Below, piece after piece: positions 31,929 to 37,203 of a stretch of 58,249 bases of DNA. The notes beneath the pieces were generated by a model. The model searched no databases. It saw only the letters and a program-made list of their open reading frames with translations, and was not told the origin of the DNA. The position numbers were made by a program, and so were the translations under genes. How positions within the stretch are numbered: the stretch's first letter is position 1; each line of letters opens with the position of its first letter. This DNA is from Pseudomonadota bacterium. Lineage in GTDB: Bacteria > Pseudomonadota > Gammaproteobacteria > Steroidobacterales > MnTg04. The DNA is taken from contig JACZVC010000021.1 in the NCBI GenBank assembly GCA_022572885.1, positions 1-58,249 of the forward strand. Reading direction: 5' to 3'.

Positions 31929-33515
31929 CTACCTGGCGAGCTCCGCACCGAGACCGGCCAGCACCGCCGCATAAACCTCAATTGCATCCCATAGATTCTG
32001 TATGCGCAGATTCTCGTTCGGGCTATGCTGGTTATTGTCATGGTTCGCCATGGGCAGCATTACGATGGGTACGCCAAGCCCTTGCCGAATCACGTGCAGC
32101 GGCAGGCTGCCGCCCATCGTCTGCATTCTGATCAGTTCGCCGCCCCGCGCCTGCAGCAGAATCCGGCTCAGGGCCCGCGCACGAGGATCATTCATGTCCA
32201 TCCAGACAGCCGGGTAACCTGATTCCCGCCACTCGACCAGCGCGACCTTCTCATGCTGCCCCAATGTTTGCGAATCCGGTGGTTCCCGCACTATGGTATA
32301 GCCTTGTTTCCGGATATGGGCATCGACCAGCGCCTGCACTTTTTCGGGCGTGAGATCCGGGACCAGGCGAAATCCCAGCGATACGGTGGCCTGATCCACG
32401 ATCGCGTTGCGTGCTGTCTTGCCCACGCCGCCGGCACTGATTCCCCGGACATTGATCGCCGGATTCATGATCAGTCTCTCAAGACGCTGACCATTACCCT
32501 CCGTCCATCCCAGGGCGAGGTCTTTTCGCAATAACGCGTCGACCGGTGGAGCCACTGCGATCGCGGCCAAGGCTTCCGCGCTTGGCTCAGCTACCGCATC
32601 GGCAAATCCGTCGACCAGAATTTCCCCATCCGGGGCACGCATGCTGGCCAGCAGATGCACCAGCATCATGACCGGGTTTGGCGCCCAGTTCCCGTAATGC
32701 CCGCTGTGCAATTGGCGCAAAGGGCCATAGACGGTGACATCTGCCGCGGTCATTCCGCGCACGCCAAAACTGACCAGTTGCCGGCGGGTCTGGTGCACCG
32801 GCCCATCGCAGAACAACCAGAAATCGGCCTGCAACAGGTCCGCGTGCCGCCGAATCATGTCCGCAAGATGAGGCGAGCCGGCTTCTTCTTCGCCATCGAA
32901 AAAGAATTTGAGATTGACCGAAACGGGAATATCCGCCGCCGACAGCGCATCGATTGCGCTCAGTAGGCCAATGATCGGCGCTTTGTCGTCACCGGCCGAG
33001 CGCGCGTACAGACGCCATTCGCCGGGGATTTCGACTGGCAAGGAAGCAAGATCGACTGTTGCCGCATGGTCTTCGAGTCTTCCTTTGCGCAGCACCGGCT
33101 GCCAGGGATCGGACGCCCACAACTCACGTTGCACAGGCTGGCCATCGTAGTGGGCGTAAATGAGTACCGTATGCGCAGCACCCCGGTTCAATTCGCCAAA
33201 AACAACCGGCGGGCTGCCCGGCGCTTCCAGCAGACGTGACTCGATGCCTCGTCGCCGCATCATCCCCATAATGAACTCGGCATTGCGACGCATATCAACG
33301 TGATTCGACGCTACGTTCCGCAGAGCCAGCAAATCCGCAAACTCACGGATGATGCGGGTCTGGTTGGCGCTGCTGTGGGTCCGTGCCGCAGCTACGGCCT
33401 GGACGACCAGCGACTCGGAGCCTTCTGTCCCCGCCATCGCAGGCGGGCAGAAAATCAACAGTGCGCTACACAGCCAGTGCTTTGCATTCCCGATAACGAA
33501 AACAAGCTGTTTCAT
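31929..33515 (-). CDS. Secreted M20-family metallopeptidase
   Basis: A 528-residue di-zinc aminoacylase/carboxypeptidase-type enzyme. A signal peptide (AKHWLCSALLIFCPPAMAG) begins the ATG-33515 form. Metal ligands are visible: YAHYDGQPV (His, Asp), FFDGEEEAGSPHL (catalytic Glu pair), CDGPV (Asp) and NHDNNQHSPNENLRI (His). A dimerisation domain is inserted as in M20. The substrate is probably a peptide or dipeptide in the periplasm. The start overlaps the 3' end of tag by 50 bases in another frame. Confidence 0.88.
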   Translation of the reverse strand: MKQLVFVIGNAKHWLCSALLIFCPPAMAGTEGSESLVVQAVAAARTHSSANQTRIIREFADLLALRNVASNHVDMRRNAEFIMGMMRRRGIESRLLEAPGSPPVVFGELNRGAAHTVLIYAHYDGQPVQRELWASDPWQPVLRKGRLEDHAATVDLASLPVEIPGEWRLYARSAGDDKAPIIGLLSAIDALSAADIPVSVNLKFFFDGEEEAGSPHLADMIRRHADLLQADFWLFCDGPVHQTRRQLVSFGVRGMTAADVTVYGPLRQLHSGHYGNWAPNPVMMLVHLLASMRAPDGEILVDGFADAVAEPSAEALAAIAVAPPVDALLRKDLALGWTEGNGQRLERLIMNPAINVRGISAGGVGKTARNAIVDQATVSLGFRLVPDLTPEKVQALVDAHIRKQGYTIVREPPDSQTLGQHEKVALVEWRESGYPAVWMDMNDPRARALSRILLQARGGELIRMQTMGGSLPLHVIRQGLGVPIVMLPMANHDNNQHSPNENLRIQNLWDAIEVYAAVLAGLGAELAR

Positions 33516-34056
33516 GATCGTTAACCATCCCGATGGCCTGCATATGTGCGTAAATAATGGTGCTGCCAACAAACTTGAAGCCCCTCTTTTTCAGGTCTTT
33601 CGACAATTCGTCCGATTGAACGGATGTCACCGGCAGCTGTGCCGAGGTTTTCCAGCGATTTTGAATCGGTTTGCCGCCAACGAAATCCCAGATGTAGCGG
33701 TCGAAGCTGGCAAACTCTTTTTGTACGGCCAGGAACGCCTTTGCATTGCTTACCGCCGATCTGACCTTGAGCCGGTTTCTGATTATCGCCGGGTCGGCCA
33801 GGAGTTTCTCGATTTTTACATCATCGTACCGGGCAATCTTGTTGGGGTCGAAGTTGTCGAATGCCTTGCGGTAACCATCGCGCTTTTTCAAAATGATCTC
33901 CCAGCTCAGGCCCGCCTGCGCGCCCTCCAGCACCAGAAATTCGAAATGCAGCCGATCATCGTGTACCGGCACACCCCATTCCCGATCGTGGTAGGCGTGA
34001 AAGATATCCTTTTGCGCCCACTTGCACCTGGTGTCTTGTTGCTTTTTCCCCGCCAT
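33466..34056 (-). CDS. tag: DNA-3-methyladenine glycosylase I
   Basis: A 196-residue HhH-fold base-excision repair enzyme that removes N3-methyladenine. Signatures: CKWAQKDIFHAYHDREWGVP, FEFLVLEGAQAGLSWEIIL, FVGSTIIYAHMQAIGMVNDH. The zinc site of Tag is complete: Cys and His near the N-terminus (RCKW, YHDREW) and HETAC at the C-terminus. The length is close to E. coli Tag (187). Its last 50 bases overlap the signal-peptide coding region of the M20 peptidase. Confidence 0.95.
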   Translation of the reverse strand: MAGKKQQDTRCKWAQKDIFHAYHDREWGVPVHDDRLHFEFLVLEGAQAGLSWEIILKKRDGYRKAFDNFDPNKIARYDDVKIEKLLADPAIIRNRLKVRSAVSNAKAFLAVQKEFASFDRYIWDFVGGKPIQNRWKTSAQLPVTSVQSDELSKDLKKRGFKFVGSTIIYAHMQAIGMVNDHETACFRYRECKALAV

Positions 34057-34150: not shown

Positions 34151-34183
34151 GCAAAAATAAAAAGGCCCGCTTGCGCGGGCCTT
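34151..34183 (-). terminator. Rho-independent terminator of the HvfA-like gene
   Basis: AAGGCCCGC-TTGC-GCGGGCCTT (34162-34183) is a perfect 9-bp stem. Read leftward it is followed by TTTTATTTTTG. It lies about 40 bases after the stop codon of the HvfA-like gene and separates it from tag, so the HvfA-like gene is the last gene of its own transcript. Confidence 0.9.
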
Positions 34184-34223: not shown

Positions 34224-34544
34224 TTACAGCGACTCGCCGCATTTGCCTTCGCCACACTTGCCTTCTTCACCTTTGTCTTCTTCACCTTTGTCTTCTTCAC
34301 CTTCGTCTTCACCGCAGCTTCCTTCGTCGCCTTTATCCTCGCCACAGCTGCCTTCGTCGCCTTTATCTTCGCCGCAGCTGCCTTCGTCGCCTTTACCTTC
34401 ACCGATATCGGCAACCATGTAGCCGGCACTCAGCGCGCTCGCCATGAACGGGCTGTTGTCGGCACTCGCGGTGCCAGCGAAAGCGAACGAAGACGCCAGC
34501 GCGACGCCAACGGCTATAGCCAGAGGTTTCTTTAATTCAGACAT
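34224..34544 (-). CDS. HvfA-like Cys-repeat RiPP metallophore precursor, orphan
   Basis: A 106-residue low-complexity protein. A Sec signal peptide (KKPLAIAVGVALASSFAFAG, cleavage near ASA at 26-28) leads to an acidic, Gly-rich tail with three exact 10-residue repeats KGDEGSCGED (51-80), a DKGEE stretch, and the ending EGKCGEGKCGESL. Five cysteines lie at 57, 67, 77, 97 and 102. The EGKCG signature defines HvfA proteins, in which Cys is converted to oxazolone/thioamide by the MNIO enzyme HvfB (DUF692) with HvfC. No DUF692 or HvfC gene is present in this window. AAGGAGA precedes the ATG and a strong terminator follows. An ECF sigma/anti-sigma pair lies immediately upstream. Modification and copper binding are inferred from the family. 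Confidence 0.8.
   Translation of the reverse strand: MSELKKPLAIAVGVALASSFAFAGTASADNSPFMASALSAGYMVADIGEGKGDEGSCGEDKGDEGSCGEDKGDEGSCGEDEGEEDKGEEDKGEEGKCGEGKCGESL
34262..34306 (-). repeat. 15-bp tandem repeat inside the HvfA-like gene
   Basis: Three copies of CTTCTTCACCTTTGT (plus-strand sense; the third has one change) encode the DKGEE-type repeats. They are in frame, so the copy number can change by slippage without a frameshift. Confidence 0.8.
34311..34400 (-). repeat. 30-bp tandem repeat inside the HvfA-like gene
   Basis: Three contiguous 30-base units (34311-34340, 34341-34370, 34371-34400) share the core CTTCGTCGCCTTTA and encode KGDEGSCGED, one cysteine per unit. Contraction or expansion would alter the number of modifiable cysteines. 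Confidence 0.85.
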
Positions 34545-34879
34545 GATGCAGGTCTCCTTAGTATCCCATAGGGAATTAACGGCCTTTCCGGCCTTTATTA
34601 TCCGCTTCGAATGTGATTCAGAGCGGCCTCAAAGTAGCATAGACCCCGGACCGAAATGCCGCCACTGTCTGAATTTTGCGACAAGTGGAGATTAATCGGA
34701 GCCGGGCGGTCTCAGACCGCTGGTACACATTGTTGCGCGGCGGATTCATTGAAGCCCATATAGAGCGGGAAGAGTGCCTAACCACAAAAAACCAGATCCA
34801 TACCACCATTACTCAATCGCCCAGTCGGGCTTAATCAACTAGACAGGGCCTCGGCCAAAAAAATTACACGCTGATACGA
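34545..34879 (-). promoter_or_regulatory. Leader region of the HvfA-like gene
   Basis: These 335 bases separate the anti-sigma stop from the HvfA-like start, with all genes leftward. The region must hold the HvfA-like promoter, which on family precedent may be ECF-dependent. A GGCC-rich short hairpin (about 34580-34596) lies in the leader, and AAGGAGA lies at about 34553-34559. I cannot assign a -35/-10 pair with confidence and see no gene here. Confidence 0.4.
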
Positions 34880-35566
34880 TCAAATATCCCAGCGCAGCGA
34901 TTGCACAATCGGCTCGGACACCTCTTCGAGATCTCTTTCCTCGCCGCCAATAATAGCAATACTGCCTACGGCCGCGGGCAAAATGGTTCCGAAAAAGCCT
35001 TGCTCCGAGAAACTTGTTGGCCCGGCGACTTCCAGATCGGGCAATATCATCACCGTTACCGGTCCTTTCTCTCCCTGGACCACCAGGTGGGGTACCAGCC
35101 GGCCTCGGAAAATGCAGCTACGCGCATAGGAAACCCTGGCTACACCATCAGGCATCGTCATCCTCGACCTTCGAAGTACCGCCTCCAGCCGTTGATACGG
35201 CACGCGTTCATCGGTAGACACCAGGGAGATCTGCTCATGCCGCAGATGAGCAAGCAAATCCTGTGCAATGTCGCCATGCGGCGCGCTCCACCAGCTTAAC
35301 AGCCCCACGCCCAGTCCTAGGACCAGGCTCGCGGCAAGTCCGATCCACTCCCGGCCCTGGGCGGGCACCGGGTAGGAACCTCCGCGATCCACTCCGTGAT
35401 CCGCAATGAACGGGACACGCAGCGCCAGGACCAGCCTGCGGTCAAAATCCTGAACTCGAGCCGCAAAACGGGCGCATGCCGGACAAGCCTGCCGGTGCGC
35501 CAGCAATTGCTGGTCCTGGCAGGCGGGGTCAGCGCCAAACTGTTTGCGAAATTCCAGGCAATTCAT
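34880..35566 (-). CDS. Membrane-anchored zinc-type anti-sigma factor (DUF3379-like)
   Basis: About 228 residues. The N-terminus has the ZAS-like motif HRQACPACARFA (H-x3-C-x2-C), which binds zinc and the sigma factor. One membrane segment (EWIGLAASLVLGLGVGLLSWW) precedes a periplasmic domain (SCIFRGRLVPHLVVQGEKGP; GTILPAAVGSIAIIGG). It starts about 10 bases after the sigma stop; the TTG at 35587 is an alternative. It should sequester the ECF sigma factor until a periplasmic signal arrives. Confidence 0.82.
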   Translation of the reverse strand: MNCLEFRKQFGADPACQDQQLLAHRQACPACARFAARVQDFDRRLVLALRVPFIADHGVDRGGSYPVPAQGREWIGLAASLVLGLGVGLLSWWSAPHGDIAQDLLAHLRHEQISLVSTDERVPYQRLEAVLRRSRMTMPDGVARVSYARSCIFRGRLVPHLVVQGEKGPVTVMILPDLEVAGPTSFSEQGFFGTILPAAVGSIAIIGGEERDLEEVSEPIVQSLRWDI

Positions 35567-35576
35567 AACTGGTGAC

Positions 35577-36080
35577 TCATTCCTCAAAAGATTTCATCAG
35601 CATCTTGCGAGCCCGGTACAGCCTCGTTAGCACCGCGCCTTGTTTGATTTCCATCAGCCCGGCGATCTCTTGCGTGCTGAATCCCATCAAAACCTGCAAA
35701 ACCAGGGGTTCGCGATAACCGGGCTCGAGTCTGCTCATCGCCTCCCTGAGGTCTGCCAGATCCGTATCCGGCGTATTCGCGATCAATCCCTTTTCAGCCG
35801 GTGTCAAATCATCGATATCCTGAGTGGGATGCCGCTTCCTTTCATACATCCTGGCATTTTCCCGCCGCAAAATGGTGATCAGCCAGTAGCGGGCTGCCGA
35901 TTCGTCCCTGAGGCTGTCGAAAGAGCGCCATGCCCTCAGCAAGGTCTCCTGGACCAGGTCCTGGGCGATCGAATGATCACGGCAAAGCCAGTAAGCAAAT
36001 CGGAACAGGTCCCCCTCGTGGGTTCGCGTCATGTTCTCAAATCTGCGGTGTCTGGATTCCTCGGTATTTTCCTGCTTCAT
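35577..36080 (-). CDS. ECF-type RNA polymerase sigma factor (second locus)
   Basis: About 167 residues. Region 2: LFRFAYWLCRDHSIAQDLVQ and SAARYWLITILRRENARMYE. Region 4: RLEPGYREPLVLQVLMGFST and IAGLMEIKQGAVLTRLYRAR. The ATG at 36080 is preferred; a TTG at 36128 is upstream and lacks support. It is paired with the anti-sigma gene and divergent from hemB. Its likely targets are its own promoter and the HvfA-like gene directly downstream, which is inferred from position. Confidence 0.88.
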   Translation of the reverse strand: MKQENTEESRHRRFENMTRTHEGDLFRFAYWLCRDHSIAQDLVQETLLRAWRSFDSLRDESAARYWLITILRRENARMYERKRHPTQDIDDLTPAEKGLIANTPDTDLADLREAMSRLEPGYREPLVLQVLMGFSTQEIAGLMEIKQGAVLTRLYRARKMLMKSFEE

Positions 36081-36102
36081 ATATTCAGACCGGAGACATT
36101 GA

Positions 36103-37203
<1,101 letters not shown>

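Follow-up and report, generated by a model that had tools for sequence, protein, structure and literature searches.

Within the window, the whole 58,249-nt stretch of DNA analysed here (contig C21 of a draft Pseudomonadota genome), a gene for an exported HvfA-type precursor lies directly downstream of the genes of an ECF sigma factor and its anti-sigma factor. Where are the enzymes encoded that would modify its product, and why does it accompany a sigma factor? The initial annotation had offered two readings, either a split metallophore system, with precursor and regulator here and the enzymes elsewhere, or an unmodified metal-buffer protein. Our analysis supports the split system: the locus is quite probably the precursor half of an EGKCG-type (oxazolin/captophorin, HvfA) metallophore system, with the sigma factor coordinating the enzymes in trans. 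The locus reads as follows.

33466-34056, minus strand: tag (3-methyladenine DNA glycosylase I), downstream flank, conserved in relatives
34162-34183, minus strand: intrinsic terminator 3' of hvfA (9-bp stem, 4-nt loop, T tail)
34224-34544, minus strand: hvfA, exported EGKCG/HvfA-type RiPP precursor (ORF; NCBIfam KCGExKCG_twice above cut-off)
34233-34265, minus strand: EGKCGEGKCGE C-terminal core motif (translation; NCBIfam NF050137)
34305-34394, minus strand: three exact KGDEGSCGED repeats (core), residues 51-80 (translation)
34461-34544, minus strand: HvfA signal peptide, residues 1-28, predicted cleavage between ASA and DN (by eye from sequence)
34662-34688, minus strand: inverted repeat CCACTTGTC-N10-GACAGTGG, 5' of hvfA (conserved block, role unexplained)
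34842-34867, minus strand: weak candidate hvfA promoter GTAATTT-N15-TGTC (matrix score 3.1-4.4)
34880-35566 (ORF 34880-35587), minus strand: anti-sigma factor, DUF3379 (Pfam PF11859, E 8e-37)
35577-36080, minus strand: ECF sigma factor, PRK12517 subfamily (NCBIfam PRK12517 above cut-off)
36088-36113, minus strand: promoter-like site of the sigma gene, GTAATAA-N15-GGTC (conservation and genome match)
36196-37203, plus strand: divergent flank gene, which we take to be hemB (ORF; homologues at the same place in relatives)

The translated ORF of hvfA gives a protein of 106 residues with five Cys. Its N-terminus, MSELKKPLAIAVGVALASSFAFAGTASA, is followed after the predicted cleavage by DNSPF, and its C-terminus is EGKCGEGKCGESL. 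The three repeats carry EGSCG, a variant of EGKCG found also in HvfA of several relatives. With its repeated EGKCG-type Cys motifs, two of them C-terminal, the protein has the motif pattern of an HvfA / Buf_EGKCG precursor, and it passes the KCGExKCG_twice domain model (21.3 bits, cut-off 19.5). Its match to the HvfA equivalog model NF050188 (E 2.7e-9, 37.5 bits) falls below the cut-off of 95, and we therefore place it in the HvfA family without calling it an equivalog. The length of 106 residues, the three repeats, the EGKCG ending, the five Cys and the strong terminator had all been described in the initial annotation, with coordinates that proved exact. The gene is present as a single copy in the genome. 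Among relatives, hvfA of one member of the genus (G002; L009 1507-1707) is cut to 66 residues with two EGKCG motifs, and HvfA of G022 and G008 (L017, L025) has, at its C-terminus, a hydrophobic segment and an Arg-rich tail (GGGGAVAPLLLGLIPLALRRRR) that together look like a sorting signal.

Two MNIO (DUF692) genes were found by a PF05114 search of the genome, a 96% complete assembly of 2.76 Mb in 66 contigs. Both lie outside the window, as had been claimed, on contigs C19 and C2. On C2, hvfB is followed by hvfC and hvfX, with no precursor gene on either side, and the three products exceed their NCBIfam equivalog cut-offs (bits/cut-off: HvfB 448/360, HvfC 318/142, HvfX 188/80); putative nth and rnfE genes, named from their ORFs, precede this operon. 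The second MNIO gene belongs to a separate bufferin-type operon on C19 (L001 1126-3089), DUF2282-MNIO-DUF2063 (BufA-BufB-BufC). Hence, HvfB, HvfC and HvfX of an oxazolin-type (hvf) system are all encoded in the genome, with hvfA on C21 and hvfBCX on C2. Because the precursor stands outside the enzyme operon, we describe the system as a split variant that would work like an hvf system.

The oxazolone/thioamide chemistry first assumed for such a product is outdated, since this earlier assignment for HvfBC-type enzymes has been replaced by 5-thiooxazole (PMC13419390, PMC13097082), formed with the loss of 4H per Cys (PMC12538549). In the accessible part of PMC13097082, FonBC tolerates Ala, Arg or Thr at EGKCG position 3 and requires a small residue (Gly or Ala) after Cys; Ser before Cys is absent from the residues tested there. 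As all five Cys of HvfA are directly followed by Gly, full modification to 5-thiooxazoles, amounting to -20 Da (-4 Da per Cys), is plausible. Judging from its family, HvfA would then buffer copper.

The split recurs in relatives. hvfA was found in 32 of 59 genomes (own included), all 32 of which also encode an MNIO, and it shares a contig with an MNIO gene in only three of the 59 (G018, G044, G052). Since hvfA of C21 is bordered on both sides by conserved genes, its separation is no contig-end artefact; the assemblies are drafts, and a few of the split cases could be unjoined neighbours, though the flanks argue against this. In addition, the order sigma-anti-sigma-hvfA-tag with divergent hemB is kept in most MAGs of Woeseiaceae and related Gammaproteobacteria, as seen when 84,980 species were scanned with the sigma alignment, not hvfA, as the query. 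The linkage of regulator and precursor is thus conserved across many Woeseiales and not random. Genus-level sisters of the source genome are the MAGs JAPUGL010000067 and JAPUHG010000134, and the source bacterium appears from sequence to be related to Woeseiales, Gammaproteobacteria that are frequent in marine sediment. The regulator is not obligatory, as three genomes (G012, G025, G027) keep hvfA with no anti-sigma gene detected. Elsewhere, the sigma-DUF3379 pair is found in other company: in Vibrio, Photobacterium and Ferrimonas (L116, L124, L105, L110) it lies beside FadL-like and PutP-like genes (by eye), without hvfA, and at two loci it adjoins a bufA-like gene and MNIOs (L113 1188-6479) or an hvfX/DoxX gene (L107 3207-4591).

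The pair upstream of hvfA, read from the outset as an ECF sigma factor and an anti-sigma factor in the same direction, is identified as such by ORFs, Pfam and NCBIfam. The anti-sigma factor had been taken as zinc-type. It does have HxxxCxxC, but the family is DUF3379, in which this motif is absent from 4 of 17 relatives; by this comparison, the cytosolic motif appears dispensable. The PF11859 match, a membrane helix and an adjoining cognate sigma factor place the protein in DUF3379. Its predicted layout comprises a cytosolic N-terminus with HxxxCxxC, a single membrane helix (residues 75-94 in the model) and a periplasmic domain. Among 50 diverse DUF3379 members, H108, E112, C152 and H161 (numbering counts from the Val codon at 35569) are the only invariant periplasmic residues. 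A copper-specific sensor of hvfA-linked pairs was considered and rejected, as these four residues are kept in the hvfA-free Vibrio and Ferrimonas pairs too; H111 is the sole residue enriched in the hvfA-linked group. The periplasmic part is modelled by AlphaFold with a pLDDT of 92.6, and among solved folds it comes closest to the C-terminal domains of RseB and MucB, with a VIA-align Z of 7.7 (below 8, too low to set it apart from a common arrangement), an rmsd of 3.1 over 91 residues and about 8% identity, and with Foldseek probabilities of 0.80-0.99 at non-significant E-values. The model hints at an anti-sigma factor with an RseB-like sensor of its own, which may hold a metal or redox site. 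A search of the accessible literature for DUF3379 by name returned nothing about function.

A promoter-like sequence connects the two loci. GTAATAA-N15-GGTC, found before the sigma gene, is present also 5' of hvfB (G000:C2:2841-2866). Almost every Woeseiales locus has it before the sigma gene, and GTAATA-N16-GGTC occurs in 46 of 81 sigma upstreams overall. At hvfB, the site is found in 5/5 genus genomes (as GTAATAT in G002), with the boxes kept and the spacer variable. A matrix built from sigma sites alone was applied to hvfB upstreams, G032 being excluded from the count for its masked (N) upstream. It found the site in 12 of the 15 anti-sigma-positive genomes (scores 14.9-26.8) vs 0/8 anti-sigma-negative ones (top score 1.2; Fisher p 3e-4), and exact matching genome-wide gave 16/24 vs 1/22 (p 9e-6), both p-values being optimistic since related genomes are taken as independent. 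The three misses at hvfB belong to one family (f14); in these genomes the sigma factor is present and the site absent. Against a background of about one to two matches per genome, it is unusual for one to fall within 150 bp of hvfB. The site was also detected before a bufA-like gene, itself 5' of an MNIO gene (G055, G064), before an hvfA lying away from any sigma gene found (G022; G008 is similar, with the version GAAATAA) and, outside the main set, before hvfB in G062 and in the Steroidobacteraceae MAG G063. It was absent from the BufB-type MNIO upstreams of the order (0/7, scanned over 400 bp from the MNIO start) and from the vicinity of the MNIOs in Ferrimonas, Marinobacter, Dokdonella and Vibrio genomes. 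Overall, the common site suggests that one ECF sigma factor switches on both the hvfA locus and hvfBCX.

Other strict matches in the own genome (on C1, on C4 near an RNA-helicase gene, and on C26) are unsupported by relatives and were set aside. The match on C26 lies 35 bp before the gene of a 146-residue protein with no Pfam match (L144 1562-2002), possibly a regulon member, possibly a chance neighbour.

At hvfA itself, a strong promoter was looked for in this genus and none was found. The candidate GTAATTT-N15-TGTC, whose score corresponds to about 1e-4 per position, is kept in position in 5/5 genus genomes and is no more than suggestive of a promoter. Between the anti-sigma stop and hvfA lie about 336 bp, terminator-free on that strand, and the simplest reading is that hvfA would be transcribed here by read-through from the sigma promoter; in most Woeseiales the gap is about 60 bp, and anti-sigma factor and precursor can share one transcript. 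The inverted repeat within the gap is near-identical in 5 genomes of the genus and has one copy in the genome, allowing up to 2 mismatches; it is possibly an operator or a hairpin before hvfA. Rfam gave one sub-threshold match only over the locus, at the terminator, which we take as chance.

The genes, their conserved split and the common site are read from the DNA; from these we infer a course of events that would run from the inducing signal through promoter activity and modification to copper binding. DUF3379, spanning the inner membrane, would hold the ECF sigma factor inactive until periplasmic stress alters its periplasmic domain. The released sigma factor would activate GTAATAA-N15-GGTC promoters, those of its own operon and of the distant hvfB-hvfC-hvfX, and the transcript of the sigma operon would probably run through into hvfA. 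HvfBC would convert the five Cys of cytosolic HvfA (three in EGSCG, two in EGKCG) into 5-thiooxazoles, and the modified peptide would leave via Sec and buffer periplasmic copper.

Could HvfA instead stay unmodified and buffer metal in the periplasm as a Cys/Glu-rich protein, the second reading of the initial annotation? The window without an enzyme gene fits this, as does Ser in place of Lys before Cys in the repeats, and the accessible text of PMC12452194 deems unmodified bufferin-like precursors possible. Yet an MNIO accompanies hvfA in 32/32 genomes, hvfBCX lies in the same genome and a sigma-type site precedes hvfB, which makes an unmodified buffer improbable. That BufBC of contig C19, and not HvfBC, modifies HvfA deserves still less credence: the BufA-BufB-BufC operon is indeed present here, but BufBC has its own DUF2282 substrate, BufB-type upstreams carry no site within the range scanned, and four genus relatives with hvfA have one MNIO each, of the HvfB type. 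We regard a merely accidental proximity of hvfA and the sigma/anti-sigma pair as equally far-fetched. In Vibrio, Photobacterium and Ferrimonas that same pair does occur with no hvfA beside it; against this, the linkage is kept across many Woeseiales, and the site recurs at hvfB, at the distant hvfA of G022 and before bufA in G055 and G064. The split reading, with precursor and regulator here and enzymes elsewhere, is thus supported by hvfBCX on C2, by the conserved gene order and by the common site.

The nature of the signal is a finer question. The split may be real and the regulon answer periplasmic oxidative stress (thiol, methionine, singlet oxygen) rather than copper, the peptide being one of several repair or protection factors; this variant of the split reading differs in the signal alone, and we see in it a real possibility, if on balance the less probable one. 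It draws on sites found 5' of msrP (G007), of exported thioredoxin-like genes (G010, G037, G022) and of exported AhpC/TSA protein genes (G024, G047) or near dsbD (G056), although each of these targets turned up in just one to three genomes, which is close to the chance rate, and some may be coincidental. Their leaning to periplasmic thiol/methionine protection matches the Caulobacter sigmaF and Neisseria sigmaE regulons. In addition, the V. cholerae pair VC2302-VC2301, likened here as a sigma/anti-sigma pair only, responds to blue light and ROS (PMC5241685). On the other side, copper too damages periplasmic thiols, and Woeseia is abundant on copper surfaces (PMC6917582). The inducing signal of the split system would be periplasmic stress, from copper or from thiol/methionine oxidation.

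Several known systems resemble this one in part. The oxazolin hvf operon of Haemophilus influenzae (HvfA-HvfB-HvfC-HvfX) has the same EGKCG-type exported precursor and homologues of HvfB, HvfC and HvfX, and fontiphorin, gonophorin and bulbicupramide (captophorins, EGKCG group) have the same precursor type, with 5-thiooxazole expected here. In these systems the precursor lies inside the enzyme operon, whereas the precursor gene studied here has a sigma/anti-sigma pair for neighbours, on a contig other than that of the enzymes, and encodes repeats that are mostly EGSCG. The Caulobacter sigmaF-NrsF regulon comprises sigF-nrsF, two bufferin operons and yedY/msrP, with the promoter GTAACC-N16-CGAA (PMC3511200). 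Like the regulon proposed here, it is small, depends on an ECF sigma factor and includes MNIO operons at a distance as well as msrP (the latter in one relative here), but its promoter differs from GTAATAA-N15-GGTC, its bufferin (DUF2282) precursors stay with their enzymes, and its DUF1109 anti-sigma factor has six membrane helices, in contrast to the one helix and periplasmic domain of DUF3379. The Neisseria sigmaE-MseR operon (NMB2140-2145), with msrA/msrB in its regulon (PMC3240639), is alike in gene content (an ECF pair, a doxX-containing gene set, methionine sulfoxide reductase) and forms one operon, unlike the split loci here. RseB and MucB are periplasmic sensors of the RseA/MucA anti-sigma factors, whereas DUF3379 would carry its similar domain within the anti-sigma factor itself.

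Stand-alone bufferin and Buf_EGKCG precursors away from MNIO genes, with in-trans modification proposed, are already known from Antoine et al. 2025 (PMC12452194), as are sigma factors for Buf1 clusters; these points, and the lack of a conserved sigma/DUF3379 context, common promoter or order-wide split for the stand-alone precursors, refer to the accessible text of that paper. In the literature as far as it was accessible, we saw neither the sigma-DUF3379-hvfA locus nor the common site described, nor a split that spans the order, and to that extent these are new here. A broader proposal, nearly as apt to hold as to fail, is that each DUF3379 protein is a periplasmic sensor in one piece, its RseB-like domain bearing an invariant His-Glu-Cys-His site, and that the family defines here a separate type of MNIO-metallophore ECF regulon, whose precursor and enzyme loci stand apart order-wide and are co-expressed only via a common promoter.

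The split arrangement prevails in the Woeseiales relatives examined. Cluster-based mining seeks precursors within a few genes of an MNIO and therefore misses it. With the common promoter-like sequence, orphan precursors can be matched to enzymes encoded far away, and further regulon members predicted. DUF3379, a family of unknown function, gains a testable role, and a parallel emerges to the Caulobacter and Neisseria regulons that link MNIO peptides with methionine repair.
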